DNA from: Apostichopus japonicus
Lineage: Eukaryota > Echinodermata > Holothuroidea > Aspidochirotida > Stichopodidae
Reading direction: 5' to 3'
NCBI RefSeq assembly: GCF_037975245.1
Contig: NC_092566.1
Location: 16,347,001 to 16,411,000, forward strand
DNA length: 64,000 nucleotides
A program made the position numbers and the translations under genes. A model generated the notes under the pieces. The model did not search any database and was not told the origin of the DNA. It worked only from the letters and a program-made list of their open reading frames with translations. Of this stretch, positions 27,057-55,604 are shown one piece after another (within the stretch, counting starts at the first letter, position 1; each line of letters starts with the position of its first letter).

Positions 27057-30000
27057 ATGATGCCCAGGATCTTCTTCCTACTAGTTGATTTGACATTCTA
27101 CTTTCTCGTCTATTGCAATGGACAATCAGGTAGGCCTATACTTTGTATTCGGTATAGTCAGCATATTAGAAGAAGAAGAAACGAGTAACTGTTTAATTTT
27201 ATCTGTATGATATTCTGTAAAATAGTAATCGCCACGTGTCTTATCCGAGTGAGAAAATTCTGATTTTAGAAACTCTGTTTCATGTATGATTTAGTCTCAT
27301 TTAATTTAATCATTCATTCTGAAAAGAACATAATAGAAAATATGTATAATAATTAAGTAATAACCCATCAGACAGAAGGACGTCGTAATTAGGCCAGACA
27401 GTACATGTATAACAGTAATATTAATACGGTAGCCTAACACTAACCTGAAAGCAACGTGAGCGTTCCTCGAAACTAATATTGTGGTTCTAATCGGTGAAAT
27501 GATGATAATCAAGCAAATGTGTAGGAATTATCAAACGTAATAATCACGTCTGTGGCAGGATACTAAACACCGTATTAAAGATAGCTTAATGACGTTAGCG
27601 AAAACTGCAACGGTTATGCCATTATTATGCTAATTGTAAATAGGTTGCTTTTTGGCGTATGTCAAGCACATTACCTTAATTTATGAAAGTTCATCAGTAT
27701 TTGCTCCTTATAGTTTGTTAATATCCCATTGTTGACCGTTTTGGAATGACTCGTCTGGATCGTGGTTCCCTTGTAGCGCTTTACATATGAAAGCCGTGTT
27801 ATACATAGATTACTTTTCAATTATTTTTGGAAAACGTACTAAAACGAATGAAAGAGATATTTTGTTGAAAGAGTTGACGAGTATATGCATACCATTTGCC
27901 GGAAGGTTGTCATTTAGGTATTTATGTACTGTTTACATTTTTACAGCCCGTTTTGATATGACTCTATTGGATCGTGGTCCTCTAAGGGCTGAAAGTGATG
28001 CCTCAGATAATAATGAGTACCAATGCTATCTTGGTAATCCGGACACCAGCAAAGATTCAATGAAGTCATACAGAGTAGGATGGACTAGAGATATTGCAAC
28101 TGAAAATCCAGAACCAGGTGATATGGAGTTTACCGATCAAGGGAATAAATGGAGTGTAGATTTGGATGTATCAAATAACAACGCATTTGGAGTCTTTGGA
28201 TGTAACGCTACTCGTGATGGCGAATGGGATCGAACAGAGATATCAACTGTGAGGATGGTGTCAAATGGTATGTACCGTGGTTAATTAAAATTCCAAGTCA
28301 AGATCTACAAATTAGATAAAGGATTGCTATTTATTTGTTTGACAAAAACAAAATTGTAATTATTATTTTTTCCAATTTATTAGCAAATCCATGATATTTT
28401 TTCGTTCATTGTTTCACGAAGAGTCAATATTGATCATAATAAGTTGCTTTATGAGGAATAAGGCGTCATTCGTTAAAGAAATAACATGGTTAATTTTATC
28501 TAATTAGATTGGCTTACTATATTACACGAGAGATTAGTGTCGACGTCCTTACATTTGAAAATGCTGGTCATATATAAAATAGTCTGTTATATAAGGACAT
28601 ATGGGGTTCATGTAGTTAACATGCACGACTGTTGTAAACCATAGCCATGTTCGCTGGGCTTTTCTTTACACAGTCGCTAATGGATATCATTCACGTACAA
28701 AGATTTATAATTCCGAATACACCGAAACTGTTAATCTGGTGAAAAATTCCCAAGTTTATTTAGTCTATGCATATACTTCAAATATAGTCTAGATATCCGT
28801 GACTGAAAACTACAATGGTTAGTAATGGTTAAAAAAACATCAGGTCGCGAAAACAAGCTTCATTCTCCAAAATAAGGAACAAAGTGTCATAAAAATTTAT
28901 GAATACATTAATGCTCTGATAACATCATAATGCTTATAATCCTTTATTATCATAATATACACAACTATGCATGCTTAAACTAGATATCATTATCTTTTCC
29001 AGTATTAAGGATTCAAAAACTTTTCCAATTAGAGATGGGATATGGTGTTAAACAACATCAGTGTAGCTGAACAGACCGTCATTCTTTCTTGATTGGCAAC
29101 TGAATGGAAAATATGTCTGCTAGTAGTTTGTAAATATATGCAAAGGCTCGTATCACATTCGAATTATGAATAAATTAATAACAACTGTTACCCGGATAGT
29201 TTCCTGATTAATTGTATAAGATTGCCAAGGAAGCTAGTAGCAGTATATATATTAGGATATTTAATTAATTATATTTTGATTATTGAAATATAATAGAGAA
29301 ATACGTTGGAATATATGCTTCCTTATTTCGTTATGGAAATGTTTCCCCTTTTTGAGTCAAATCGATCAATGGCTCATAAATCACCGAATATGTTTCCCCA
29401 AATTTACACGCCGTACAACGTACCCCTTGTGAAATAAATAGACACAAACATTATGCTTTTATTGTTGGTTGTCGACATTTGAATGATTTTTTTTGGTAGT
29501 TGATTATTGTTGCTTTTGCAATCCTTTTAGCCGATGTTGTGCCAACCGTACCGCTTTATACCCAGACTGTCAACGTTGGTGATTTGGATATAATTATACG
29601 AATGGAAATTCGAAATGGCAAAGACGTCGCAAACCTTAGATGGATTCATAATAACAAAATCATAACGGCAGCAGATGGAAAAGATACTTACGTCTTTAAT
29701 GATCCGATTGAAGAGAAAGATGCTGGTATATACGAGTGTTACATTGACGGAGAAAGAAATTTGGCAAAGCATGGTATACATTTACTAATTGTAAGAGGTA
29801 GGTAATAACCGCCGATGAACAGTTTCATTACATTACACTCTGGAGACGTACATATATATTGTAATCTTCACCTAATACCAATAAATCCGTAGATCTATTC
29901 TCTCTTACTCTAATTAGCACCAGAAATAAACTTTATCTCATATCGCGGTGCCTTAAAATAAAGCTACTCACATACTAACGTCAAGTTCATCGGCTAAAAG

Positions 30001-32758
30001 TCAGGACAAATACATGTTGCATCCGACATTAAACAACATGTCCAAACTGATATTAACGAATATATGGAATGGGTGAAGGGAACAATTGATAGTAATAATA
30101 GTAATAATACATGGTTTTAAAACAAGTTATATTATGAATAGTATATGGCAGATGCATATGTCTTCAGTGCGACGATATTAAAGCATGATTTAAGTTGATT
30201 ATTGATTGTTTACTGTGGAAATGATGTCCTCAGTAACGTAACATTTTGTCATCATACGTTTTGATTAAAGTCCTCAAAACAAAGGGAGTTTATCAATTTC
30301 TAATTGTTTTTGTTCAAAATGTTCTTTAGTTCAAACCTGGATTGACGTTGTAAAGTGTTGATGATCTTTGCATGGTGGCTATTCTGAACGCTCCAATGAG
30401 ACTGAACTAGTCATATGTTGCATTATTACATGACAGCAACCAAACCCCATATCTGTAAATGTTCTGACAACATTCATACACGACTCTTTGTTGATTAGGT
30501 CAAACTTACGTAAAGACGAACAGCGGAGTAGTTGATAATCGCATGTCATGAGCCTGTTACTATAGCTATAACCACTAGTTTTAAGTTGATTAGTTTGAAA
30601 ATAGTAAGACGTTGGACACACGGCTGTGATGGCACAAGGAACATATTGTTGAGACAAGTCTACACGCAAAATAGTTGAGCTGACTTTCGTCTTTAAATAC
30701 GTTAGATTTTTTTGTACTTGTGTTGACTTTTATTTACCATGTAATACTACACGTCCAAACAATTCAACAGCTTAAATAGTCCAGATTTGTATATATATAA
30801 AACAAGGAAGCAATAGTAATAATTCTAAATCTTTACAGAATAAGCAGTACAGCAATTAGTGATACAAAATGAACTAATTAAATGGCGGTGCTGGTGTCAG
30901 GAATGTTGCCGTTACCGAAAACACTATTAACATTCAAAACATAGTACTATTAATTAGGTTAAGCATGACACTGGAAATATATTTCAAGTAAATATAGTTA
31001 TCAGCATATAAACAAATCATGTTTAAGGCTTTCTGTCTGGTTTTACAGGTACTGTTACAAGTTTGTATCAAATAAGCGTTGTCTGATTTGGCGAAATCGT
31101 ACTTGGGTATAGTTGAGATTTTGCTTTATTATTTTATCTTCATCAGTCCTGGAAAATCTAGAATGTACAGTAAATTCTACGTTTCAGTTTTGTGTTCAAT
31201 TGGGAAGCTGGCTCCAAACTGAAGGCAGAAAAGCCCGTGACTCTTTTTTCAATCGGATGCGATTTAAATGTGTATTTGAAATTTGGGTTTTTATGTCTAT
31301 TTTACAGCTTGTCCAGCAAATCGATGGGGTCCTCCTGACTGCTTCGGCGTTTGTGATATCTGTTATAATGGAGGTGTTTGCGACGACTACAATGGAAAAT
31401 GTATGTGCCTGTCTGGATTTGGGGGAAACAACTGTGAGATAAGTGCGTAACAATTCCGAATGCACTTCATATTCATATAAGACAAATACGCTTTACAATC
31501 CGTTTACCAAAAATGTTAAGTTGTTCAAAAGTCAATTCAACTTATTAGGCAGATTACGAAGCAGTCGCGCCGTTTCATATCATGGATAGGCGAGATGTCA
31601 ACTAGTAAGTTAGGCCAATTATGTTCTTAAGAGTAAATATCACACCACCCAATTCTGTGGTGCAAGATTGATGAACTTGGCAGTAGGCTTCACAGTTATC
31701 ATACTGAATATTTACCTTTCTCTTTACTCGAAGTTGGTCGAAAAACAAACATCAGAAGTATAAATTACACACACTCCACGTACTTATATCACGTATCAAG
31801 GTGAGATCGATGCTAATAGACAGTTAAGACCGCGAAAAACGTCCACTTCTAAGTATCAAAGATTGCGACATACACGGACGACTCCAAAATTCCGTTCATT
31901 TTGCTTGAAAATTGAAATCATTGTATGACTTTGGAGAATATTAAAGTTGTTAGACGGGATGTCATTTAAAGTTGTAAGGTGTAATCAATTGGCTTTGTAA
32001 CAATAAACAGTTGCATTGTAATTATGGAATGGTACTTATCGTATCAGTGAAATATGAATTAAAACACCTTACATTTTAATGTGTTGTTTGTCGATGTAAG
32101 ATAATTTATACACGATTCGCTAATACGAATAAAACGAATACATTCCAACATTTGAGATCTCAGGAATGGAAACAGAATTTGTGACACATGTGCTTGTTTT
32201 TACTTGCTCTGTGAAAGTTTTAGACTTCGTGATAACGTGAGAATTTGTTTTCTGTTTATGTTAAATACAGCATTTACACATAATTTTTAACCGCTATCGG
32301 TTTTCATTGGGAATATAGCTGGTGAGTGAGTGAAAATCTCCGCTTCAATTGAGAGTATATAATAAATCATTGAGGAAAATCGCCATTTTCGTTAAGTACA
32401 GTACAATGAAAGAGTTTCAATTTCCATTGAACAATTTCCATTGGGCAATGTAAAACCTAGTTTACAGAAAATCATTTGTTTCATTTCAGTGTGTGGTTAT
32501 AACAGATTTGGACATGATTGTGGATTCCAATGTAGCTGGATAGAAGATGAAGCGATTAAGTGCAAATCAAACCTGTTTTGCCGACCACACCCGCTAGGTT
32601 GTACCTGTATTACGGGGTTTGAAGGACTTGATTGTATGGAAGGTTAAGTTCAGATATTTGCTCAATTTGTTTGCACATGACAAGTCCGTTATTCTATCTA
32701 TAACCAATATATCTATCTATCCACCCTTCATCCAGTAGATGCATAGAAGTATATATAC

Positions 32759-32792
<34 letters not shown>

Positions 32793-33565
32793 GAGAGTTG
32801 TGTGTATATATATATGTATAAATATATATATATATATATATATATACTTCTATGTATCTACTTCTATGTATTGTAAAGAAAATCCTAGTGTATTATGATT
32901 CTTAAGGACCCGTCGGAGGTTACGCAACTTTCACCATGTGACTTGAAACTTACATTACTTTCCTTAGATTGGTGAATTTTAGCTTTTCCAAGTAACGACT
33001 TCAGACTGTTAGGCTACCTGTAATGACAGCTGAGGGCTTAACAAACTGCTGTCAATATAACGACATGTTACTTGTTTTGCAACATGCGTTACTTAGCTCC
33101 TGAACTGCTTAGAATGCTTTCACGTCATTGTAGAAAAACACAGTTTGAGCTCAGCATGAGGCATAGGGGTATAAAGGCAGACTTAGGCTCCCATTGGGAG
33201 ACATTTTAAGACAACCAAACCATTTGAGCTGAAAGGGATAGAGAAGAACTATCACAATGAAAATTGACAAGAAACCCCCGGAGGAATTGCATTTAATCGG
33301 ATCTACAGACTTTATACATACAAAATAAATGCAGTAGTTAGGAATATGAAAGAAGTAAGCATTTCTACATAATAAGCCTAGGTTCTGCTTGCACAACATT
33401 TTGCTGTACTATATCTTCACTGTATAGTAACACGTGCACAAGGAAGGTTTATTCTTTTCGAATCGTCGTGTAACTTATTTATTATTACTATATTAGTTTT
33501 CGAACGTTTTATCAATTTTTACATCTTACTTGCTTTGGCGATTTTTCACGAACTGACCTTTCTAC

Positions 33566-33614
<49 letters not shown>

Positions 33615-36483
33615 CCTCTATATAAACCTCTATTAAATATATCTATAACAAAATATTAACTTGTAGTTGCGCAGAATGGCGAAATTATAATAAGCCAAAG
33701 GAAAGTCCGCAAGAAGGTGACAACCTTTACATTCCACATAGGCTGTTTTTAAGAAATATTTATACACGTAACTGATCATTCTTTTGTGTAACACGTTAAA
33801 CCTATTCGTTGAACCATCAAACGAACTTGACTTTAAGCAAGTCCAGTCCATTCCTGTCTAATCACATAATAACATTTACATCGCAGACTGTTCAACTGGA
33901 ACCTACGGTGCAAGCTGTCTGCAAACTTGCCACTGTGAATCGGGAGAATGCGACCAATTTACTGGTAGCTGCATTTTACCATCATGCGAATTCGGGTGGT
34001 CAGGAATCAACTGTCAAGGTAAATTGAACCATTTAAAAAGTAAAAGAAAATATGTATGTGATCGAGACAGTTTTGTTTAACTAACCAAACAGGAAGTGTT
34101 TGTGTACTTGGTTTGTCAATTTAACTAATTCAACCGACATATTATCCCATTGCAAGTAGCTTATTTCTTACCCTCCTTCCCTCGAAGCCCAAAAAATATT
34201 GTACTTTTCTTTTATATCAGTATTGGCATATTTATAAACAGTTATCTATATCGTGAATACATTAAGTATGTACTGTAGATGTACTTCCATGGCTCAAAAT
34301 GTTGTTCACTGACTGCATATGCCACTCAGAGCAAAGAGTGCGTAAACTTCGACAAGGAACTACGTTAACTATAGACGGGAGCGCTGCATTTCAACTTTGT
34401 TTGAACATATAATACCAATACATCACATTTTTGTAACAGAGTTGTCATTTCTACTTCCAAGACAACATTCGCTGTAATATTTGTGTTTCACCATTAGTTC
34501 CTCACATATGTCCAGTCGACTACTTTGGAGGTGATTGTACATTTAAATGTCGCTGCAAAGATAGTTGTGACAAATTATCTGGAGCATGCTCGACGGCAGA
34601 CTGCGATGCAGGTTACAAAATTTACGATGGGAGTTCCATTTGTACGGGTAACTCAATGTTTATATATCAAACATTTTCTTTGAAGCGTTTATAAGCGAAT
34701 AATATGAACGCAGCAAAATCGGTGGTTTATAGCTTAGTTAAAAGCAGGCCCTCATTTCGACTAATTTATTTGTAGGTTATGATTAATTTGTTCCATGTAG
34801 ACTATTAGGAATATTTCATGACTAACAGTGTTAAAACAGCCGATACTCGTAGCATCGAGCGGTTAAAACTAAAGGTATTTTCTCTGCTACGTACAGAGAA
34901 TAGTCGATCATTAAAGATGTATACATTGTGCATGATTTAAGCAGTTAAAGAAAATGATTAAAGATATTTACTACCGACTAGACATGTTTCCCTATGTAAA
35001 AATACTAGGCATACACGTATTTACGTTCTAACAAATCAAAAGACTTTGCCCACCTTCGCATACTTCGCGGTTACTGTTGCTGATAATTTCAATGAACGTT
35101 TCACTTACGTTTAAGATAGATCAATACTTGATGTTGGTGATGTAAACCGAATGAAAAATAATAGTAATAGTAATGTGTCATGTCACCAATGATTCCAAAA
35201 GTATACATATAAATGAAGCCGTTGCTTCTTTGACGTACACTGTTACAATGGATTTTTCACAGAGTGCCAAGGGCAAACGTTTGGTGAAAACTGTGCTGAA
35301 AACTGTCACTGTTACGAAAGTTACTGCAACAAGGTGACAGGATCTTGCAATGGAGGATGTGACAATGAGTGGGTGGACCTCTTCCCCCCTAACAACTGTC
35401 AAACTGGTAAGGAATTAAGTCAGTGGTCGCACATGATATTTGTACGTGAACGTGTTCAATGGTTTTATCAATGCTTCTCTCTTTACTCCTGTATAGACAG
35501 AGTTTTCTGCCATTTGTGATACTAAATCAACATCCTTTAAAGCAATATACGTTACAGATTGACTACAACTACATATCAGATTGTTCTCCAATTCATGGGT
35601 TGATCATTAGCCAAGTGTTATGAAATCCAGCAAATTCTGATGGCAATGAAATTGGCAATGCCATCCGCATGACGATTGGACTTTGTATATGTTGGGAAAT
35701 GATAGTGAAGTTCGCTATCATTTCAAGTGTAATGAATGTAATTGCTAAGAAACCACTTTGAATAATACTGATAATCAGAAAGTTAAACCACGGATCGTTA
35801 TATCGATAAGTCGTTACAGTACGTATATATGTATAGAACCGGTTTCACGTGTATCAAACATGGGATTTGACACCTGTTGTTTGCATTCATTGCTATAGTA
35901 TTGTCCATAGCAGTTTAATTTCAATGCGTCCGAAACAGGTTGTATTACTTCTCGGCTTTTTATTAGTGACGTCGGCATCCATGCTTAATAGGGTGTATTT
36001 AAATTAAAGTCATGATGATAATAAGAGTCGTGTCTTGAGAATCGTAACAGAGACTTATAAGGTAGAATACTTATTATCCACCATCCTGATCATTTTTAAC
36101 GTTGTGCAATATAAAATGTGTATGCTGAATAGCTGACTCTACATCTTTTGTGTGAAATGAATGACGGTGTCCCCTAGTTTATTTGTTCACAGGCCTTGTC
36201 GACGCTACGTTCACTAAAGTAAACCCAGGCGTTGCGGTACCAGTTCACTGTACAGCTATTGAAGGTCCCGGGGGAGATTTGGATACACTAGATTTGGTTC
36301 TCTCATGGCACCCTATCGGTCTCCAGAATGAGGACATTAAGTACAATGGTACTATGGAGGATACAAATGTAAAGATTAACACCTTCATAGTGGATAACGT
36401 GCTTGAAGGACACTGGCTATTCTGTCAGTTGAGAGCCAGGGGCACCATGGTTGCAGTGCTTGATGTTACCATTGAATTTTATG
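27057..36483 (+). CDS. Adhesion GPCR exons 1-9: signal peptide and Tie-like Ig-Ig-EGF(5)-Ig block
   Basis: Exon 1 (27057-27129) encodes MMPRIFFLLVDLTFYFLVYC, a clear signal peptide. Exons 2 and 3 resemble Ig domains 1 and 2 of Tie2; exon 3 has the DAGIYECYIDGE signature of an Ig F strand. Exons 4-8 are EGF-like. Exon 4 (RWGPPDCFGVCDICYNGGVC) and exon 5 (YNRFGHDCGFQC, then CRPHPLGCTCITGFEGLDC) follow the Tie2 EGF1 and EGF2 cysteine and residue pattern closely; exons 6-8 continue the run, giving five modules where Tie2 has three. Exon 9 (36193-36483) is a third Ig-like domain in the place of Tie Ig3. No fibronectin III or kinase exons follow. The Tie resemblance is from memory of the family, not an alignment. 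Confidence 0.8.
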
Positions 36484-39400
36484 GTGAATACTTTTCCACT
36501 TAATATATTTTGTTACACTGTATATTTGATACAAACAGTTAACGGAAAAAAGGGCGTAAGAGCGTACACACTGCATTCATAGTGACGAAGCAACATTTTG
36601 TGGTATGTTGCTTCAATCTTTAAATTTTGGTTATTCGTTAACGTAATGCGATGAAATGTTCATCAGGGAGATCGTTTTTTGCTTCAAAAGACCTCGGCAA
36701 GCAAAGAATGCATGTATGCTTTTATAGCAAGTGACCCAACAACATTTTACGTGGTATTAACAGGGGTTACATCCAATGGTTTCATCAGTATGGCAGTGCA
36801 AGGGCGTAGGAACCGGGGGGGGGGGGGGGGGGCTGGGGGGGGGGGGGCGCCAGCCCCCCCCCCCGTGAAAAATATGGGGGGGGGCGGAAGTATCATTCCG
36901 CCCCCCCCCCCCCCCCCCCCGCTCCGCAAGTCAGAAAACCCCTTTTTCATTTCCAAATGAGAAAAAAATCACATTTGGAGCACCAAATTGCATTTAAGGC
37001 CAGGTGAAAATGCAAAATTCTTTACAAAATGGAGTGGGAGTTGAAGTGTGCTATTTTGCACCAAATTGCATCTGAGGCCACCTGGAAATGCAAAAAAATT
37101 CCAAAGGGGAGGGGGGCACCCCCTCCCCTAAACCCCTCCCCCAGGCCGGCCATCAGTCTTCAGCCCCCCCACTCAAAAGTACCTTCCTACGCCACTGTGG
37201 CAGTGCTTTAACGAGAAGTAAGATGAGCATTTACGACATGAATGTACTTTCACTGAAATATGAGGAGAAAGAAACTCGACTAGATTTAAAGCATCCTTTT
37301 TTATATTTCTTGCAAAAAGCTTTGCCATGTGATCACCAGGCTCCAGCAGGTGAAATGGTGGAGCGAGATCCACAAGGCTCAGGTCCCTTCCAAGATGGCA
37401 CCATAGTTGTTTACACATGTCCTGATGGATATAACTTGGTTGGAGACACGACAGCAGTGTGCCAGAACGGAAAATGGACCGTTGAGGAAGAACCCACTTG
37501 TGAAGGTATATTTCAAACTACACGGCAACGTCATTCATATCACAACAAATACATTTGTGTGATATGTTTGTTAAAGGACGCTATAGCATGACTTTTTCAA
37601 AATGATGATAGTGATGAAAATGTATAACCATTAAAACATATGTAACCATTCAAAATAATACATTTCAATACCATCAAAACGATCGAGGCATATGAAGTGT
37701 TTTGAGACCATGTGAATACTTAACAGTATCCAATGACGTCGGTTATTTGACTTTAATAGAAATAATGTTGGTGCAATATGTGGTTAGCCTCAAATCTTTC
37801 TTGGTTACACTGCATCGACCCGAAAAAAAACCAGCAACTGTTTCAATAGAATGCTATAAACATTTGTCTAATGTGGACGTTTGATTGACTAAACGCCGTC
37901 CGACCTTTGGAACCACGTTGAGCAGAACAGTTCGTTTTATTACATTAAACCCAGTGGCGGAGCTAGGGGTATTGGTCAGGGGGTGGGGGCGAGAATGGTC
38001 TGTAGGGGCGCTTCGACACTATCTAAGCAGAGCGCCACCACAGGTTGGCGCGGAGCAAACATACATTTTTTGAGTAAAGATACTCCCTAGATCGCCGGAA
38101 ATGACCCTTTCCGGGCCTTGCTAATTTGCAGATAAACGAAGAATAAATAGGTGTCATCGCCATTTTGTCAGAAAATTACACCAAAAAAATGTGACAAATG
38201 TCAATAGGTATTTGAGAGCGCAATAAAAAAAGTCAATAATCGCGAATAAGTAAAACGTGGTAAAAAGCTGAAAAGGGCGCCAGCAGTACATTTGAGTCTG
38301 TCAGGGGGGGCATCCGCCCCCTCTGACTGTATGGACGCTCCGCCACTGATTAAACCCACATCTTATATCCCAACAACGGGATATTTATCGATCGGGTCAA
38401 TGTTGGTTCAGCATTTTCATCCTGGTTGGGGATACTTAACATTAGACCATTGTAGAAACAATGTAATTATCCCAACAATTGGTTATGTAATATTGAACCA
38501 ACATTACACATTTTCCGTGTATCTCAACTGCTGGATAATACACGTATTTAATCATGTAGTACAACTTCCAGGTATTACTCAACTATCCCCAACCTTCCTT
38601 TCTTCTCCGCAGTCGATCGCACTGTACGCCGATGTGTTGTTGCACACCTGACATCAGATCCAGAATCTGCTCTAGAATATACTGTTCGTTTCATGGACCA
38701 TGGCATCGCAAATAACACTCAATTGTGGGCTAAGGACCCATACGGAATGAAATATGGTCCATTTTCAGGAGGAATCCTGAATACGTTTTCGTATAGAGCG
38801 CCTGCGTATTTTATTAATATATTCAAACGGCCCTCATTGGAATTCTTAAGTGAAGCGGATGTTTATTTGTATTTGTCGATACAGAACAACAATCAAATAT
38901 TGTGTTATCCTACTGAACACATCGGCACAGACTACATACTGGTAACATTCACACACAATACGACCACGTTTCTTATCACAGCCTCTGTTTCAAACACCGA
39001 GGTTGCTATTCTGTTTAACGAGGACTACTATTTCAATGGAAAAACCTACAGTTTGAATTACCCTTTAAGATTTACTCTTAATGATTTAGAAACTGCCGTG
39101 GTGCAGACTCCCTTTGATGCAACTGGTACTTTTGTTAAATCATCAAATCCCGTTGCAGTTATGATGGACCTTCGATCAAACGAACCCTCCGCATCTTCTT
39201 CTTCGTTATTTTACCTTCCTCCTGTGAGTGAATGGGGCTATAATTTTTCTTTCACAATTTCCCCTGATAATCTGTTTTCATTCAGAATAATAGCTGCTTA
39301 CGATGCAACCGTTATTAAGATGGATCCAAGTATGCAGCTTTGTGGCCAAGTGGTTGAAACATTTATTCTTGAGGCCTGGGAGATACGTGATTTTAATGAT

Positions 39401-42400
39401 TTTATGAACTGTTTCATTTTTGTATCATCATCAAAACCTACCATAGTCCTCTTAAATGAATATTCTTCCCCAACATCTTGCCACAATATTGTGGTACCGT
39501 CAACAGATAGAGCAATACAAAGGATTCCGGTATTTATAAAGGAAAAAATAATGCAACCTAACATTAGAGTCTGGATCTCAAACGAGGACTATCACAGTAT
39601 ATTAATTGATAATGAAACGAAGGTTTGGGATGTTGTGCAGAACAGCAGTAGAGGTTTTGTAATGGTCGAAAAACTCGTAGAACCTGGATATCACGTGATA
39701 TCGTCATCTAACGCAGCATCTAGAATTCTTGCCATCGCCAATAAAGAGCTGTACGCGGCACACAATTTCAATTCAGGTATGAGCCCACCATATGTTTAGT
39801 GAATTTTCGTTCCTTTTGGGATTAATTACCTTTTATTGTTTGCAAATATTGTCGAAGAGATAATAGTTTTATTTAATTGGTTAATTTTATTAATACTCAC
39901 AGTTGACAAATGTTGTCGGTTGTCTTATTTTGATCAATTCAAATATTAGTATAAGTTGTACTTTGCAAGTTCGGCGACCTCGATGATCAAACGATAGCAC
40001 AACTTTTACCCGAGAGAATATCCTTATAGCGAAGCCTTCTGGGTGTTATCCTTGAAATACGAGCAAATGTTACAATGAAGTTAGTAATGAGTTACAGTAA
40101 AAAACAAGTAAGTGGTAAAACAAATATCTTTAATAAAAGTTATAGCAATCCTGTCTTCTGAAAGTTTATATTAACGGGTATTTTCCCCTTAAAAATTAAA
40201 GATAATGACTTTAATGTTATCATTATCGCGATTATGTAGAAATGTTCTTATTATCAGGATGGGATTTAATAGGTCTTTGTTGACATGATGCCTTTTATTT
40301 TCTATTCTTAGAGATATTTCTCAGGACGTGCCCTTTCGAAATGTTGTCGTATTCTGGCGTGCAACTAACCTTTCGTTCAACTTTCCCTGGAACATCCGCA
40401 AACTCAACGCAAAGCTGCAGTCGAGATTCTTCTTATGGTAACTAAAACGTCTTAGTTTAATTAATGGAACTTTTTCAAATATAGTTCAACAATTTACGAC
40501 CCAAAATTCCATTGGTGACATCTCTGTTGTAATGTGTAAGTGCAATCATCAATTGTCACAAAAATGACCAAGGAATTATTGAAGCAATAGTCTTCCTTGG
40601 TATACTTTACAGATTGTTAAATCCTTAATGGTACCTAACAGTCTTCTTTCTAACTTTTAGCAAAACAGCCTCTGTCAGGTAGATTTTGTGGTCACCATGG
40701 ATGGGAGGAACCAGTACTCACAAAATGTTACTCTTCCAAAGACGCGACAGATGAAATTGAGAGAATCGCCAATGTAAGTGTAATATGTTATATGTAATAT
40801 CATTTCGAATTTAAAGAACGAGAATATGTTACCGTACTTTGAAGTTATTTTCGCTGTAAATTCCGTACATGAGATGCTACATCAATATCACAAAACGATT
40901 GCTTCATATAAACTTACTATAGTGCATTCACCACGATTCTTTTTTTTTTTCAATTTTTTTTTTTTGTCCAGCAAAGTACGATATGGTAGTTGTTGTGTTC
41001 AATGAGGACGAAATCACAACTGAAAGTTGGAATTGTTATTAACGTTACTCTAAAATTAAGGATTGGAATGAATATAGGATACTGTATTTGAACAGTGTAA
41101 CATCACCAATACCTATTTCGAATGAACATGCACACTTTTAGCGATCTTTTATTCAAATTTTCGATTAGGAAAAGACCCCCTAAGAAAAGTACATGTTGTC
41201 TTTGACACATGGGAAATTGAGCCAAGTTATTTGTTATCTGTTTAGACGACTGTGACGGAGGAAAATGTCGAGGAAGTTGCCGGCGATCTAGCACTCATAA
41301 CAACTCAGACTGACGATCTTGACGCATCAGAAATCGAAGATGTAGCTAGGTCATTGGAGGATATTGCTAATGCCAACAGTTCTTCACCAGAAGTAAGAAC
41401 TTCGTTTTTCAATTGAATTTAAGTAATATACAGACCTATACACAATGATATGTACATGTAGCTACGTAACTATGCCAATGTGGTCGTCTGGGGCCCGGCG
41501 AAAAATACCGAAAACAACGAAACATCCACTCATCCGCTGAGGCAGTAGGTCAGCAAAGAGGCTAGTGTTGAGATCACACGTTTGATCATTCAAGTCCAAA
41601 ATGGCATAATGTACTCTATGTGGGCCAAACGCGTATTCATCTATTATTTACCCATATGAGCGTCTTCTTTAAACTGCCATCAGAACCACAACAACTTTTG
41701 AAATTCTGACCAGGCTCATCCTAAATGTTTGTTTCAAAGGTTACACAGTCAGTTTTGGGGACAGTCAACAATTTAATGGAAGTAGACGAAGACGAACTCG
41801 GCAAGGAAACGCAAGGATCCAGTAGCGTAATCATTTCTCTGGAGCAACAAGTCTCAAATGTCCAAGAGAATCCAGGAAACTTTACAGACGTACAAGTCAA
41901 TGTTGGCGTTCAAGCTGTTAAAGTTAATCCAAGTATTACTAACGCGATCACATTTATAAGTTTGTCACCAACTAAAAACACTCACCAGGACGTTCAAAAT
42001 GCTGACCTTTCAGAGGAAAACACAATACTGCATAATGACGAACGGGAAATACAGACAGACAACAGCCTAACATCGATCTTCGTTCCATCAATAATATTAG
42101 AACAAGCCTTGATAGGTATTTCCTTCAATCACTGAAATATCGACATTATTCTATGTCAATTTTGTTTTATATTTTACGACTTTTGTCGAAACAGCGTTGT
42201 CCGTTTATAGCCAACAATCTTGAAAGCAATTAATACAAGTTTGTTAATTTCAGTTTCACCAGAGGCAGAGATATTTCAAATTAAGTGGCAAAGTTATCGG
42301 CTTGTAAATTAATACGAGCAATAAAAGGAATACAATGTTTACAAATTTTCCTTAATTGTTTGAATAATGTCGAATCTATAGTTTTTCTTTTACTTCTTTT

Positions 42401-45400
42401 TTCACTTCTCACTTACAGTTGATCCAAACATATCCTACGTTCCAATCAGCTTTATCATTTACAAGGATTCGCGCCTGTTCCAAACAAATATGGCTTCCAA
42501 TGACACCTACAGACAGGCAATCGCTAGTCAAGTTATTTCTGCGACTTTAGAAGTTGATAAAGTTGTCATTGAAAATCTGACAGACGACGATCGTATCATA
42601 TCAAGGTTTATGATTACACCTGTAAGTATCAGCCAAGGGGGAAACTATTTTGGAAAGTAATAATCTATATGTTCATAAATCATTTCTACAGCTCTGTTAT
42701 GAGGTCTGTGCATTTTATTAAAGGAATGTACATCTGATGTTCGTTGTTAAGTTTAATTGTGTACTAGCAATGCATTAATAACTACAATCAAGCGAAAAAT
42801 TTCATGAAAGGTAACATTTTCAGACAGGAGGGTCTTGTTTCATATTTTTTTTTGCATATTTTTTAACCTACTTATCTTTGTAGGTAAACGCATTTAATTT
42901 GGTATGTTCTCTTAATTGCTATTTTCTCTGACAGCAATTAGAGGGAATCGATTCAAACGAAGTTGTAATAGAGAAGACATGTGTATTCTGGTTGGTGCAA
43001 CCGGGAAGCAAAAGCGGAATCTGGTCTGATGATGGTTGTTTGACATCTACAGACAACAACCATACCGTGTGCATGTGCAGTCATTTGACTAGCTTTGCCG
43101 TGCTTGTTGTAAGTTCACTTGAGAGATCTTTATAAATTGAAGGCAGTAGAGGCAGAAAACATTTCATTTTATATCTAACCGATGTTATGCAATTTTTAGT
43201 GTCACTGGTGCAAGCTACCGCGTCGTTTATGTGTTAAAAATGACGTGTGTTTACTGTGAGAGTAAATCTTTATGGAGTCCCGTATGCAGTACTTTATTTT
43301 TTTTTATTTTTAATCTTCACTAGATTTTAATAAAGACACAATATTTATGTTTCGGTAATGAATCAGTACAAATTCCCATGGTATAACTAATATTGCTTGC
43401 ATTTTTATTCTTTGCATTTAAAGGGAATTGAAACGGACAACCCAACCCTTAACGTTATAATGTGGATAGGATCATCTCTATCGATAGCTGGCCTCGTTGC
43501 GTCTGCCTTAACATTGTCTCTTATAAAGTAAGTCGAAGAGTCTATAATTATATTCATTTGGCAACAAACATATTGAAAACATAAACTGCAGGAAGAACCG
43601 TATATGTGCATATTCTGACATATATTGCAACCAAAACACGTTTTACTCTTTTAGAGAAATGAGGCAGAAGCACTCTTCACAGATCAATATCAACCTCTGC
43701 GTAAGCCTGATGGCTTTCTACATCACATTTCTGGCCGGGGATTTAGCCAAGACAAGCCCGAGGCATTGCCGGAACATTGCTACAGCAATACATTACTTCT
43801 GCCTAGCGACCGTGGGTTGGATGACTGTCGAAGCGGTCCACATGTACCTCCTATTTCTTAAGTTCCAATCGCAAAAAGCGTTTCAACTGAAGTTCAAGTA
43901 TTTTGTTCCTGTATCTGCCGCGTTGGTGTACGGTAAGCAGCTAAAGGTTTCCTTCCTGACGCCGATTGATTACTACCGCGATGCCATCACAATGTTCCTA
44001 CTTTCAATAAATCGTCTGTAGTCTTCTTTCAAGTGTTCCAATGGTCCCTCCTAACTGCTGATACTGACCGTGTATTTTGACACCATAATAACAACAATTA
44101 CGATTGCTGATTGAATGACTACAGACTTAAATGATGTTCCATGTCTATTGCTTTGAAGTCTTGAATTGCTGTCATAGATTTGTCATCCTAGTAATATTAG
44201 TGAACCGAATACAATTCATGATCATTTTTACATTCTTTGAGTTTCGTCTCATTTGTTTTAGGGTGGATATTTAACATTTCATGTCTTGACCTCCAGACAG
44301 CGAAAACCATTAGGTCATAGTATTAAACTGTAAAGTAATGTCATAATGTGGCAAATTCTGTTCATCAATTTATTTATTCCAGGCAGAATTGAAATTATGC
44401 ATAAGCAATCCAATGACAACATATTTACGTTCATTTCTTTCCCTAGGTCTCTCCTTGGTGCCAGTCTTGGTTGTGTTCTTCAAGTCATCTGATCAATCAA
44501 TGGAATAGTAAGTCAACATATCATTTATTACAAAGTTGTTGATTCCTTGCCGAGAGCTTTCGTAGGTAGGGCCAGATGAAATAAGAATTCGGACAAATGA
44601 AAAGTCGTTATACTTACATTCACTACTGGAATTAAATAAAGCGTCAATGCATAATATGTGTTTTTTCATGTATTTCAGGGGAAATATATCCTAACTTAAC
44701 ATACATGCTATTACCCGTACACTTATCACGTACATCGTAACAGCTCATCCGAGAAATTAAAACGTTCAGGTAGCTCTTAACATAGCTATAAAATAGGTCA
44801 GAATACTTTTTTTGTGTCCACTTGACGAAAATACTTAAAGGATGTTTGACACAAGCATATTCAGAAGCTTTTTAATGTTGATGTAAGAAATATCGACTTA
44901 TTGCAAAACCTATGTATTAAATCGTTATCTTCTGGGTAATTCTGGAAACCATTTGAATCGAATTTCACAATAATTATGAAGCTAAACTTTATATTGATAT
45001 TTTCATAATATTCTGATTAGGTACATAATCTTGAAATCCTGGCTTCAACTTATAACTAGAAATATGCTTGTACTGACATTGTTTCGTTTTTTTGTCATTG
45101 TTGGTTCTGTGATATTTTGCAGCTGCTTCTTACCAACTGGGAAAGGACTCTACTTTGGTCTTCTTGTGGAAATTCTGATTATGGTTGTCTTCAACATAGG
45201 CGTCTTTATCCTACTTCTTCGAAGAATTGTTTTCCGTCCTATGATGAAAAGTAGTGCCACGCGGAACAATAAGAAAGAAATGCTTGCACGAATGCAGCAA
45301 TTTATTCTGTTTTGGGTTCTTCTAGGGTTGTCGTGGATTTTCGGTTTCCTCGCTGTTATTCCAAACCGGAAGACATACTTGTTTGAAATCCTCTTCTGCA

Positions 45401-45588
45401 TCTTAACGTCTCTTCAAGGGATCGTTTTATTCATCTTTATCTGTGCAAAAAACCCAGAAGTGAAGAAAGCATTCAAGAAAACAAGTTCCTTCTTCAGTGA
45501 GTGGAATATCACAAACACTAAAATGAGTTACACTGTAAACAGCACTACTGACAGTACCATTGCACTTGAGACATCAAGTGATAAATAG
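27057..45588 (+). CDS. Adhesion G-protein-coupled receptor with Tie-like ectodomain, Sushi and IgGFc-binding-like domains (21 coding exons)
   Basis: Predicted type-I-oriented, self-cleaving adhesion GPCR of 1687 residues. Coding exons: 27057-27129, 27947-28267, 29531-29797, 31308-31442, 32490-32642, 33887-34018, 34498-34647, 35263-35406, 36193-36483, 37320-37505, 38613-39776, 40312-40437, 40661-40773, 41246-41392, 41740-42115, 42419-42621, 42935-43108, 43424-43527, 43655-43932, 44447-44507, 45123-45588. The total of 5064 bases is divisible by three and every junction phase agrees. All ectodomain modules up to residue 1006 are bounded by phase-1 introns. Order: signal peptide 1-21, Ig 25-131, Ig 132-220, five EGF-like 221-458, Ig 459-555, CCP 556-617, IgGFc-binding-like 618-1005, HRM-like 1006-1085, GAIN 1086-1385 with GPS, 7TM 1395-1640, short tail. 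The ATG follows a good acceptor (27038), so at least one 5' non-coding exon is expected. I cannot name a ligand or a vertebrate orthologue. Confidence 0.85.
32755..32855. repeat. Compound (TA)n microsatellite
   Basis: Two TA-rich blocks around a short GTGTGTATATATATGTATAA segment; the arms CTTCTATGTAT / ATACATAGAAG-like words flank it. It lies in intron 5 of the adhesion GPCR gene. Confidence 0.8.
33569..33613. repeat. (TA)n microsatellite
   Basis: About 44 bases of TA dinucleotides in intron 5 of the adhesion GPCR gene, upstream of exon 6. Confidence 0.85.
36799..37197. mobile_element. hAT-like MITE, family B (399 bp) with G and C homopolymer tracts
   Basis: Ends CAAGGGCGTAGGAA and TTCCTACGCCACTG with a perfect 8-bp target duplication TGGCAGTG (36791-36798 and 37198-37205). 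The interior shares long stretches with the copy at 62239 (TTTCATTTCCAAATGAGAAA, CACCAAATTGCATCTGAGGC). Runs of G at 36818-36848 and C at 36900-36920 make it longer than the other copy. It lies 122 bases upstream of the CCP exon. Confidence 0.9.
37320..37505 (+). CDS. Adhesion GPCR exon 10: CCP/Sushi domain
   Basis: One phase-1/phase-1 exon of 62 residues. It has the four cysteines and late tryptophan of a complement control protein module: LPCDHQAP, then VVYTCPDGYNLVGD, AVCQNGKWTVEEEPTC. This fold commonly mediates extracellular protein contacts. It joins in frame both to the Ig exon ending at 36483 and to the large exon starting at 38613. The intron before it carries a 399-bp MITE (36799-37197) just upstream of the acceptor. 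Confidence 0.85.
37952..38348. mobile_element. hAT-like MITE, family A (397 bp)
   Basis: Ends CAGTGGCGGAGCTAGG and GGACGCTCCGCCACTG with a perfect 8-bp target duplication ATTAAACC (37944-37951 and 38349-38356). It shares GCGCCACC, GTTGGCGCGGAGC, AGATCGCCGGAAATG and GGGCCTTG with the copy at 5201. It lies in intron 10 of the adhesion GPCR gene, before the IgGFc-binding-like exon. Confidence 0.9.
38613..39776 (+). CDS. Adhesion GPCR exon 11: IgGFc-binding-protein N-terminal-like domain
   Basis: A single uninterrupted 1164-base exon encodes 388 residues. Family landmarks of the IgGFc-binding protein N-terminal domain are TGTFVKSSNPVAVMMDLRSN, then LFYLPPVSEWGYNFSF, a later SSSKPTIVLLNEYSS segment, and LVEPGYHVISSSN. 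The domain is rich in beta-strand patterns and has several N-glycosylation sequons (NNT, NTT, NFS, NSS). In known proteins it sits on secreted mucin-like or cell-surface proteins; here it lies between a Sushi module and the HRM-like segment of a GPCR. It has phase-1 introns on both sides, so it can be skipped without loss of frame. Confidence 0.72.
40312..43108 (+). CDS. Adhesion GPCR exons 12-17: HRM-like segment, GAIN domain and GPS cleavage site
   Basis: Exons 12 and 13 give an HRM-like cysteine and tryptophan pattern (EIFLRTCPFEMLSYSG, then SCSRDSSY, RFCGHHGWEEPVLTKCYS). Exons 14-16 form the mostly alpha-helical then beta GAIN domain (TTVTEENVEEVAGDLA, VTQSVLGTVNNLMEVDEDEL, then FIIYKDSRLF). 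Exon 17 holds a complete GPS: CVFW, IWSDDGC, then VCMCSHLTSFAVLV. Self-cleavage is predicted between Leu1378 and Thr1379, and TSFAVLVG would be the tethered agonist. All GPS cysteines and the HL|T triad needed for autoproteolysis are present. Confidence 0.87.
43424..45588 (+). CDS. Adhesion GPCR exons 18-21: seven-transmembrane (family B2) core
   Basis: Helices are visible in order: TM1 NVIMWIGSSLSIAGLVASAL (exon 18); TM2 INLCVSLMAFYITFLAGDL and TM3 HYFCLATVGWMTVEAVHMYL with TM4 in exon 19 and exon 20; TM5 YFGLLVEILIMVVFNIGVFI, TM6 FILFWVLLGLSWIFGFLAVI and TM7 ILTSLQGIVLFIFICAKNPE in exon 21. The conserved disulfide pair is present (HCRN before TM3, YCFLP in the second extracellular loop). 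The last acceptor is the AG at 45121-45122: with phase 2 it restores Tyr-Cys, while the AG at 45019-45020 would give a stop. The cytoplasmic tail is about 45 residues and rich in Ser/Thr. Confidence 0.9.
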
Positions 45589-48920: not shown

Positions 48921-48993
48921 ATGGCTCGAAATCAATTCTTTCGAGGACTTCCCTATGTGTTAGGGATATTATTGACTATCGTAATAGCTACTC
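48921..48993 (+). CDS. CUB/LDLa gene exon 1: signal peptide
   Basis: ATG followed by MARNQFFRGLPYVLGILLTI, a short basic start and a long hydrophobic core typical of a signal peptide, ending at a GTGAGT donor in phase 1. It joins in frame to CUB1 at 50320. It is the first ATG-bearing exon with a matching phase upstream of the module exons. Confidence 0.7.
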
Positions 48994-51900
48994 GTGAGTA
49001 ACATTTTTACATTCAATAAAATTACTTACCATCTCTATTGTTATATGCAACGTTTATGTGCATTGCTGAAAGTCATTAAATAAAAATATCTGTACTTATC
49101 AAATTTAAGCACAAACTGTTCCTCCAACTTCAATTAAACGTGCAATCAAGTCACCGCAATAATAAGAGAAAGGTAAACTTCAAATTGCGGTTCTAAAACG
49201 GATTTCACCTTCATCTGCGAAGTTTAGTGTTCTCAACTACCTTTTACGTGGTACTCACCGTCTTCCCGAAACAGTCCCGGTTCTAAATTTTTAGGTGTTT
49301 TAACTGTACATAGACCGATAGTGATTTTTCACATTGAAGTTTTGTAGATAAACAATTAATAACGCAACCAACATTTGTCATTGCCAAAAAAAAGAGTCGT
49401 TTTCCCGTGGAATGCCTTGAAAGTACATTTTCAGTCAAATCCAATCCGAACAGATAATTGCAGATGTAACTTCTCTTTCTCTTTCTCTTTCATCTCCAAC
49501 TGACAAAGCGCATACGATCCTCATTTCAGTTTTGAACAGACGTAAAAGAACAATTGGATAATGTCCATTAATTACTCTCATATTTGATAAACTGAAATGT
49601 TATAGGTTAATGAATAATAGAAAAAACTGATGAGATACTTTAGATAATGAAAAACTGGCAAATATTTGTATAGTTAGAACGAGACACGAAACTTAATTTT
49701 GGTCTTAGACTTAAAAAAGATATTAATTAATTGTTCAGTGAGCAATTGAAGATGCAGAGCTTTAATTTTTGCATATAGTATTCTAAACGCATTCATAAAA
49801 AGTGTACAAATCATCAAAATCAATATCGTCATTAATCTATTTTCCCTCATAAAACTGATGAAAGGTCAGATCGTACTAATAGGTCAAACTCAAACAAGCA
49901 ATTTATTTGCGACTAAGACTCAACACCTGAAATACAAATTAATCAAGAGCATCCACTGCGTTTACTGTAACGTGAACGTTATATCTGTATAGTAGTCTCG
50001 AAGCCAAATTGTGTATATTTTTGATCAATAAGTATAGCGATGGTCTTTTTTGCAATATTTCACTATATTTGATCATAATGAATGTGTTAGGAATACCACT
50101 TAGGTCATCGCCAAATTAATATTCTTACTATATTTCAAGCTGATAATGATTTTCGTGGGAAAGTATTCCTGATTTCATTGTTTTTTCTTTGTAACTAATA
50201 ACTCCGTAATAACTAATATTATATTAAATAAAAATTGTATTATATTATGAAGAATTTATAAAGAAAGTATGCTTATCAAACCACAAAATGACATTACTTG
50301 TTTTTTCTGAACTATTCAGATGGTGTAAACGTTAGTTCTTCCTACAACTTTACGTCACAGAACTTTGGCAACGGACACTACCCAAACAATCTCTATGAAG
50401 ATTTTATATTCTCAGCGCCAGAAGGATTGCATCTCCTGCTTAACATTATTTATGTTAAGACTGAAAACTCATGTGACTATTTAACAATTGGTAACGGTAA
50501 TATCGTAGGCGAAGGAACTCTTTTGTCGTATTCTGGGGGACCTGCTATTAATGAATTACGAGTTTTATCAAATGGTACCAACTTGTGGGTTACATTCACT
50601 ACTGATGGAAGCGTCACCGATGAAGGATTTTATGGCATTGTTGAACCTGTAAATTTGACATCTGATGGTACAGTTTCTCTGTAATTTTTTTAAAGTAATA
50701 TCTAACTAATATTTATAAATTATATATCGACTTATAAGTTATATAAGTTATATCGACTAAACCAAGCTACAAATGTATAACATATGCTCCACGGTTAGAC
50801 CATCAACCTGGTTATATCAACATGATGTTGATGGAAGACTGTGTGAACTTTTATGAATTTTACCAAAGCTATGTAAAATGATTGACATAACACATATAAA
50901 TAATTTGCGTTTCAATCGTTCTAACAGCTGTGATTGTTTTCAACAATAATATAAGTCATTTCTTAATCATGTAGTCGCATGATTAAGTTGTTAACTTCAG
51001 GTAGTTGACCCTCATGAAAACAACCAAATGCTGTTCTTACTGTTTAACATGATTGAGTGTCTGTCATACATATATATATGAGGTACAAACGTAAATTGCG
51101 TTAGAACCATCTCAACGCAATATTCTTGGACAATTTAGTCAAACTAGCGCACTATGATGTAGTAAGAAATTCTTATCTTTGATGTTTGCAATTGTTGGTG
51201 GAATTATATAACATTTTACAAACATTCCGAATACTTTTACCTTATTACTTTTCAGAATTTGACTGTGGGAAGGAGTTTAACTGCCAAAATGGTGCATGTG
51301 TACCACAAGGTCAAAGATGTGGCCAAGATCCAGTCTGCGCAAACAGTCAGGACATGAAGCGGAAATTTACTTCTGGTCAGTAACTGAACATTGCATTTAA
51401 TTTGCTTGTTATTCAGCATATATCCTATATCTCCAAATAGACATAGATACAGTATGTGACGTTGACACGCAGGTATGAACGCACCGGGGTCCGGGCTGCA
51501 AGGGAGCGCCTATGACAAGTACCGAAAAAATAAACACTCTTTTACTGAATACAGCCGACGGAGAGTTTATTATTGATATTAAACATGCAACATATGGTTT
51601 CCCTAAAATACTGTTCAACATGCACTATACCCATTGGTAACTCAAGCAAAATCCTTTCCTCACAAGAGAAATCGCGAGAGAGCCATATCCGGGGGTGTGA
51701 GAGGTGCCGAATATATTTAGAAAAAGGCTTACCCAAGCTTAAACCATGGTTGGGCTTGGATAAATGCGGAATATTCTATGCGGAATATTCTATTCTATTC
51801 TATTTCGTTTGCTTAACCGGGACTATGCCGCTGGCAAACCCTAAAAAAATAGATGGATTTGCTCGTATGTTTACTTTATTCATGTTCTTCGCCACTTCGG

Positions 51901-54900: not shown

Positions 54901-55558
54901 TGAATCAAAGCAAGCAGTTTGAACTTGTCGACCGACTCAAATACCAGTCTGAAAAGAAATGGCATTGCATTTATTCAGAAATATATTAAGGTGGTTAACC
55001 GCTCTTCTTTGCAGGATTTTAGAGGCAATGTAAAATAGAATTAGGACGATAATTGTGTAATATAGATATGAATCACCGATCTTAAAAAAAAAAAATGATA
55101 TAGGCCTAATTGAAGGACAGTACGAGATTTAAGGTGTTACGAATATTCAGCAGTAGTTTCGCATGTTTTTGTGACCAAATCGTGTAACGATTCTTTGTAA
55201 ATTGTAGCCGTGCACACGCGATACATACATTATGCATGCAGTAGTCTTGTCTCAAGGTGATACCCTACACGGATATCAATATTCGGAATTGATGGCACAC
55301 AAGTGTGTAGAATGGTGCTACGGACACAACGTTGCCTGTCTAATGTGCATTCAGTGGTAGTCTTGTCCCAACTTTACAGTTGTTATGGGCTGTTTATATT
55401 ACCGATAGCACAATATATGACCTACTGCTAACCAATAGAGTCTTTTATAGAAAATTTCGAAGTTACGTTCTGCAAAGTATGGTAGCTTAGAGAACAAAAG
55501 TGAACTTTATCATCGAAGACATTATCATTAGACAATGCATGTTAAACCAAAGCATTTC

Positions 55559-55604
<46 letters not shown>

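Follow-up and report, generated by a model that had tools for sequence, protein, structure and literature searches.

Can the extracellular head of a Tie-type receptor stand in front of an adhesion G protein-coupled receptor (GPCR), and where would such a head have come from? This question is raised by a locus at 27057-45588 of a 64,000-nucleotide stretch of the holothurian Apostichopus japonicus (the window, i.e., C6:16347001-16411000, on contig NC_092566.1), where a preliminary description had placed a Tie2-like Ig-Ig-EGF(5)-Ig block ahead of Sushi, IgGFc-binding-like, HRM, GAIN/GPS and seven-transmembrane (7TM) exons. The window was analyzed against the genome (671,581,487 bases in 35 contigs), and the locus is, in our judgment, likely a single adhesion-GPCR gene that gained its extracellular front by phase-1 exon shuffling.

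The gene model and its Tie-like head

The exon model was built from stop-to-stop frames and a splice-site listing, with exon ends picked by hand at AG/GT so as to keep the frame. In this hand-built model, 21 exons on the plus strand splice from an ATG at 27057 to a stop codon ending at 45588 into a single frame of 1687 residues (Table 1). The exons, including those with acceptors at 36193, 38613 and 40312, lie in order on one strand where they had been placed before, and the frame runs without a break from the head into the Sushi, IgGFc-binding, HRM-like, GAIN/GPS and 7TM exons, as had been proposed. Phase 1 was found at the first 12 of the 20 junctions (from signal peptide/Ig1 to HRM1/HRM2), 11 exons thus being of the symmetrical 1-1 type. 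Since the last eight junctions have phases 0,0,1,0,0,2,1,2, the uniform phase-1 boundaries of the preliminary description are limited to the ectodomain; with these first 12 junctions, phase-1 exon shuffling is a plausible route, as had been suggested. Donors of the exons up to TM2-4 scored 6 to 8 of 9, and the acceptors of EGF3 and EGF5 scored under the pyrimidine filter used (0.53 and 0.59).

When the head was compared with PDB sequences, Tie2 chains were the best matches (E 2.5e-38, 135 bits over 257 residues, 105-361), whereas the best non-Tie chain reached E 6.6e-6 and 28 bits. The Tie2 match spans the end of Ig1, Ig2 and EGF1-3, and stops after EGF3. With a profile made from three heads, the Tie2 match rose to 167 bits (E 5.6e-48) and reached further into Ig1, versus 27 bits (E 1.8e-5) for the best non-Tie chain. 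From these alignments, the head is Tie-like, with a likeness far above chance, and the earlier claim of a Tie-type head in one frame with an adhesion GPCR was borne out by this match together with the GPS and 7tm_2 matches in the same 1687 residues. Tie2 has three EGF modules between Ig2 and Ig3, so the module order claimed for the locus is near to that of Tie2 (Ig-Ig-EGFs-Ig, with the end of Ig1 to EGF3 homologous) without being the same, as there are five EGF exons here and the match ends after EGF3.

Profile searches of the exons, as the preliminary description had recommended, gave a divided result. The Sushi, IgGFc_binding (PF17517), GPS and 7tm_2 families scored above their Pfam cut-offs (Table 1), while the Ig and EGF exons stayed below theirs (Ig_2, Table 1; EGF_STAB1-2, 17.6 bits against a cut-off of 27; hEGF, 14.6 bits against 29.3). 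No Pfam HRM model matched the protein, with GPR128_N appearing at E 0.1 only; an HRM/HormR domain is common, but not universal, in adhesion GPCRs. The weak Ig and EGF matches would suit a head that is merely a generic Ig/EGF array with a convergent likeness to Tie, although the distance between Tie2 and the best other chain, both for the single head and for the three-head profile, makes such convergence scarcely credible.

Tie-type heads elsewhere in the genome

Exon-by-exon searches revealed many copies of the head on contigs C2 and C16, often in tandem, and two of these sister loci, at C2:27.20 Mb and C16:20.12 Mb, were read over part of their length. The window's order of Ig2, EGF1, EGF2, EGF3, EGF5 and Ig3 recurs at each of them, with Ig1 and EGF4 also present at the C2 locus, at 40-73% identity per exon to the window (C19, described below, was used for EGF1 only in this comparison). 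Acceptor-side phase 1 was found in 13 of their 14 exon pieces (the EGF4 piece having been cut too long). Downstream of the head, each locus has an FN3 exon (scores of 29.7 and 30.0 bits), after which the C16 locus shows two phosphatase exons (46.6 and 25.4 bits), the C2 locus having been read only as far as FN3. The idea that a Tie-type head had been moved onto a GPCR therefore needs rewording: the head is Tie-like, but the nearest heads read sit on FN3/phosphatase loci rather than on a Tie kinase. A Tie kinase was rejected as the direct donor, since the window shares EGF5 and Ig3 with the phosphatase-type heads, and EGF4 too with that on C2.

A genome search with EGF5 and Ig3 (all 149 candidates scored, with E values up to 0.001) yielded 84 matches, which merged into 54 head loci when matches less than 3 kb apart were joined, so that a single gene may count twice. 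Of these loci, 35 lie on C2, 15 on C16, 2 on C19, 1 on C18 and 1 in the window. Ig3 matched on C2, C16 and in the window only, EGF5 also on C19 and C18, and the window holds the only EGF5/Ig3 pair on C6.

Neighbours of the head loci were counted among 123 phosphatase matches on head-bearing contigs and the 7TM matches of C2, C16 and C18 plus seven of C6 (near-duplicate 7TM matches being counted once, and a smaller subset giving the same counts). Because the best 150 of 548 phosphatase, 150 of 282 7TM and 139 of 1266 kinase candidates were scored, the lack of a listed neighbour at a head locus shows nothing. A phosphatase exon lies within 20 kb downstream on the same strand at 28 or more of the 54 head loci (upstream at least 2, on the opposite strand 0 among the matches listed), and within 40 kb downstream at 34 or more (upstream at least 18, on the opposite strand again 0 among those listed). 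Among the matches listed, a 7TM exon within 40 kb downstream was found for the window locus only; at 60 kb, one C2 head locus also has a listed 7TM exon, with a phosphatase exon between. Around 84 listed EGF1-type matches, a phosphatase exon occurs within 60 kb downstream of at least 52, upstream of at least 25 and on the opposite strand of at least 4, and a kinase exon is near at least 2 (kinase matches of C2, C12, C18 and C19). Conversely, seven FN3, phosphatase, transmembrane and kinase pieces taken from the C2, C16 and C19 loci found no match in the window, in keeping with the earlier remark that no FN3, kinase or single-pass membrane exon follows the head.

One related head was found with a kinase. 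The minus strand of C19:9133001-9160000 has a Sushi exon, an Ig2 match that is weak (28%), EGF1 (53-54%) and partial EGF2 and EGF3 matches; further along the strand lie a hydrophobic stretch with basic residues as well as three tyrosine kinase frames (71.5, 24.6 and 22.3 bits, with a cut-off of 23.1). These exons are probably one receptor kinase gene with a related head; an FN3-like frame of this locus (L016:9014-9268) matched no Pfam family. Separately, three EGF exons at C12:6.996 Mb (C12:6996136 onward), with EGF1 and EGF2 52% identical to Tie2 and the EGF2 value not above that of some other loci, make this sequence a candidate true Tie gene.

With head copies so numerous in the genome, and often in tandem, the window's head could be a disused relic, left by a phosphatase-type gene and lying upstream of the GPCR by chance. 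However, the nine exons from signal peptide to Ig3 all have open frames and usable splice sites, and the FN3 and phosphatase pieces tried found no match in the window. Moreover, when changes in the EGF1-3 codons were polarised with C12 as a distant outgroup, those on the window branch fell 8/12/28 at codon positions 1/2/3 (P 3.3e-4 versus one third), the unpolarised differences being 102/87/186, although this sample is small and third positions may be saturated. The head codons thus look constrained, as far as such counts can tell, and the relic explanation, which the third-position excess also speaks against, appears extremely improbable.

The join between head and body

If head and body belong together, they are separated by introns of 836 and 1107 bp, lengths that fall inside the span of the model's other introns. 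No N occurs anywhere in the window sequence, which rules out an assembly gap at the join. The exons could nevertheless be shared out over two adjacent genes, the first (27057 to about 36483 or 37505) encoding a Tie-like head protein that is secreted, the second a separate IgGFc-binding adhesion GPCR with a first exon of its own. In line with this, neighbouring chassis genes lack a Tie head, five AATAAA/ATTAAA words occur in the Sushi/IgGFc intron, and a weak start-exon candidate is found at 38400-38571.

This candidate emerged from a scan that looked for exons starting at an ATG, encoding a hydrophobic stretch and ending in a phase-1 donor, under varied limits on hydrophobicity and exon length. 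At a hydrophobicity of 2.2 and exons of up to 220 bp, the scan missed the model's first exon and found 38400; at 1.9 (a threshold chosen so that the first exon passes) and up to 160 bp, 38400 was lost through the shorter limit; and at 1.9 with limits of 160, 220 and 300 bp taken together, both were shown. The Ig3/Sushi intron gave no candidate at any setting, and the Sushi/IgGFc intron none with exons of up to 160 bp. The scan also recovered the first exon of a relative on C9, gave no candidate in 27130-36192, and gave one or two in 39777-45122. The candidate was judged weak because its hydrophobic stretch begins only at residue 22 and because a mere 41 bp are left to the IgGFc acceptor at 38613, versus 127 bp for the shortest intron of the model (43528-43654). 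In turn, the frame of the IgGFc exon contains no ATG from the stop ahead of it up to the acceptor, and the Ig3/Sushi intron holds no poly(A) word. Set beside the ordinary size of both introns, these observations make a division into two genes rather unlikely, and we infer from exon order and frame that one transcript would span head and body.

Several results nonetheless weigh against a single gene with a Tie-type head in use. Chief among them is the start-exon candidate itself (ATG 38400, with a 6/9 phase-1 donor after 38571, for exons of up to 220 bp), and the same phase-1 symmetry that would have let the head move in allows other exon joins. Neither the Ig1 nor the Ig3 exon has a Pfam match, and AlphaFold2 models of these exons alone are of low confidence (mean predicted local distance difference test score of 41.3 for Ig1 and 50.8 for Ig3, the latter an all-beta model). 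Finally, beyond the limits of the codon counts given above, the stem of the phosphatase-type heads shows a like pattern (10/8/17 at codon positions 1/2/3).

Table 1. Features of the window (positions within the window).
Feature	Position	Strand	Observations
Signal-peptide exon (MMPRIFFLLVDLTFYFLVYCNGQS)	27057..27129	+	hydrophobic start; 7/9 donor; ends in phase 1
Ig1 exon	27947..28267	+	phase 1-1; later part aligned to Tie2 by the three-head profile; 42% to C2 head
Ig2 exon	29531..29797	+	phase 1-1; Ig_2 25.4 bits (cut-off 27); Tie2 match
EGF1 exon	31308..31442	+	phase 1-1; Tie2 match; 64%/62% to C2/C16 heads, 53-54% to C19, 47% to C12
EGF2 exon	32490..32642	+	phase 1-1; Tie2 match
EGF3 exon	33887..34018	+	phase 1-1; Tie2 match
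EGF4 exon	34498..34647	+	phase 1-1; 40% to C2 head; outside Tie2 match
EGF5 exon	35263..35406	+	phase 1-1; 73%/71% to C2/C16 heads; outside Tie2 match
Ig3 exon (putative Ig, by position)	36193..36483	+	phase 1-1; 40%/44% to C2/C16 heads
Ig3/Sushi intron (836 bp)	36484..37319	+	no start-exon candidate; no AATAAA/ATTAAA; G-rich stretch
Sushi exon	37320..37505	+	phase 1-1; Sushi 36.8 bits
Sushi/IgGFc intron (1107 bp)	37506..38612	+	one weak start-exon candidate; five AATAAA/ATTAAA words
IgGFc_binding (PF17517) exon	38613..39776	+	phase 1-1; 97.1 bits
HRM-like exon 1	40312..40437	+	phase 1-1; not recognized by Pfam HRM
HRM-like exon 2	40661..40773	+	phase 1-0; GPR128_N at E 0.1 over the HRM-like stretch
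GAIN exons	41246-41392, 41740-42115, 42419-42621	+	assigned by position before GPS and by paralogues; no Pfam GAIN match
GPS exon with CSHLTSFAVLV (HL/T motif)	42935..43108	+	GPS 54.3 bits
7TM exons to stop codon	43424-43527, 43655-43932, 44447-44507, 45123-45588	+	7tm_2 96.6 bits
Next GPCR gene, probable start	48921..64000 and past the window	+	signal-peptide candidate 48921-48993, then alternating CUB/LDLa

GPCR neighbours, ligand and comparison with known receptors

The GPCR part of the gene has relatives nearby. At least 15 matches to the exon for transmembrane segments 5-7 lie at 15.82-17.16 Mb of C6 (best 65 of 483 candidates scored), including the window's own and a decayed copy, and 4 of the genome's 38 IgGFc_binding matches are on C6. 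The decayed copy (C6:15951001-15955365, minus strand) repeats window 40996-45343 in part at 91.6% DNA identity and carries stops and a frame break, indicating that unused copies decay in this genome. In the next downstream gene, 16 CUB and 16 LDLa tblastn matches lead up to an IgGFc exon at C6:16440103; Pfam confirmed one CUB, two LDLa and the IgGFc exon, and assigned no family to a CUB-like frame (L001:192-617), even though L001 gave matches to the CUB query at five places. The stretch of this gene was followed to C6:16448010. Ahead of the IgGFc exon at C6:15912226 (C6:15912001-15932000, minus strand), one Sushi unit recurs in 35 nearly identical matches, mostly at a spacing of 336 bp, followed by CUB and LDLa matches, and at C6:16994533 a long Ser/Thr-rich frame, recognized by eye, takes this place. 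If order and strand are taken to indicate such joins of head and chassis, the GPCR chassis appears to be a head-swapping family. The nearest genome copies of the window's Sushi exon lie on C21 (up to 65% identity). The far end of the window also holds two 18-bp tandem arrays (60254-60531 and 63040-63485), whose consensus units look like mutual reverse complements.

In the single-gene model that we favour, a Tie-like head (Ig-Ig-EGF5-Ig), carried in this genome mainly at loci that have receptor tyrosine phosphatase exons, would have moved in via phase-1 exons, and head and Sushi exon would have come to stand before the IgGFc-binding/HRM-like/GAIN/GPS/7TM chassis of a local GPCR cluster that bears other heads. 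By analogy with the general adhesion-GPCR scheme, the head would bind an extracellular protein and the GAIN/GPS part would cleave itself at HL/T. Pulling off or shifting the N-terminal fragment would then expose a tethered agonist (TSFAVLV), upon which the 7TM part could signal via a G protein.

As to the ligand, the preliminary description had thought of an angiopoietin- or fibrinogen-like protein. In the PDB alignment, the FIHSVPRHE motif of Tie2 (F161-E169) faces WIHNNKIIT in the head; in this loop, where the alignment is uncertain, I162 and H163 are kept, F161 is replaced by W, and S164, V165, P166 and the RHE loop differ. Angiopoietin contacts of Tie2 are dominated by F161 and P166, with contributions of I162, V165 and the RHE loop (PMC8294587, in part). 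Since V165, P166 and RHE are not kept, angiopoietin binding is unsupported, as far as the uncertain loop alignment goes. A fibrinogen-domain protein is a possible ligand, as a lead only: at least 169 Fibrinogen_C exon matches were obtained (best 150 of 2727 candidates scored), most of those listed being on C9, and an expansion of fibrinogen-related proteins has been reported for A. japonicus (PMC13228809, in part).

Given the same head on phosphatase genes and a kinase gene in one genome, a single receptor head appears to have been exchanged among signalling bodies of different kinds. It is a tentative thought, and one that we would sooner doubt than defend, that a single cue (perhaps a fibrinogen-domain protein) adds phosphate, removes phosphate or starts a G-protein signal depending on whether the head sits on the kinase, on one of the many phosphatases or on the one GPCR, with the adhesion-GPCR cluster serving as a head-swapping platform.

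Tie heads are familiar from the angiopoietin-receptor kinase, whose front they form, Tie2 being a blood-vessel receptor. The literature searched, with subscription papers mostly outside the search and absence thus weakly tested, showed neither a Tie-headed GPCR nor a Tie-headed phosphatase from echinoderms, nor any adhesion GPCR whose front is of the Tie or IgGFc-binding type; in the examined part of a review (PMC13197933), the words IgGFc and Tie2 are likewise absent. This is, then, an adhesion GPCR with a front that we did not find described, whereas fusions of GPCRs to other signalling modules are known, such as kinase tails in choanoflagellates and sponges (PMC12716839, in part). A Tie head in frame with a GPCR, in a genome in which such heads stand mostly beside phosphatase exons, suggests that phase-1 exons carry recognition heads from one kind of signalling body to another, and it provides a concrete gene set for asking whether the ligand moves with the head and by what route an orphan adhesion GPCR comes by a new ligand.

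Compared with known systems, the window gene shares with Tie2/TEK, the angiopoietin-1 receptor, the homologous end of Ig1, Ig2 and EGF1-3 in the same order. It differs in having two more EGF exons, in apparently keeping little of the ligand motif, and in its body, which is a single-pass kinase in Tie2 and a 7TM part here, the FN3 and kinase pieces tried having matched nothing in the window. With the Tie-headed FN3/phosphatase loci on C2 and C16, it has the order of Ig2, EGF1-3, EGF5 and Ig3 in common (and Ig1 and EGF4 with C2), unlike their FN3 (both) and phosphatase (C16) exons, which matched nothing in the window. A GPS with the HL/T motif and a 7tm_2 domain are the features of class B2 adhesion GPCRs that it displays. 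PF17517, the domain of the IgGFc-binding protein, occurs in FCGBP; the same domain is present here, where it precedes a GPCR.

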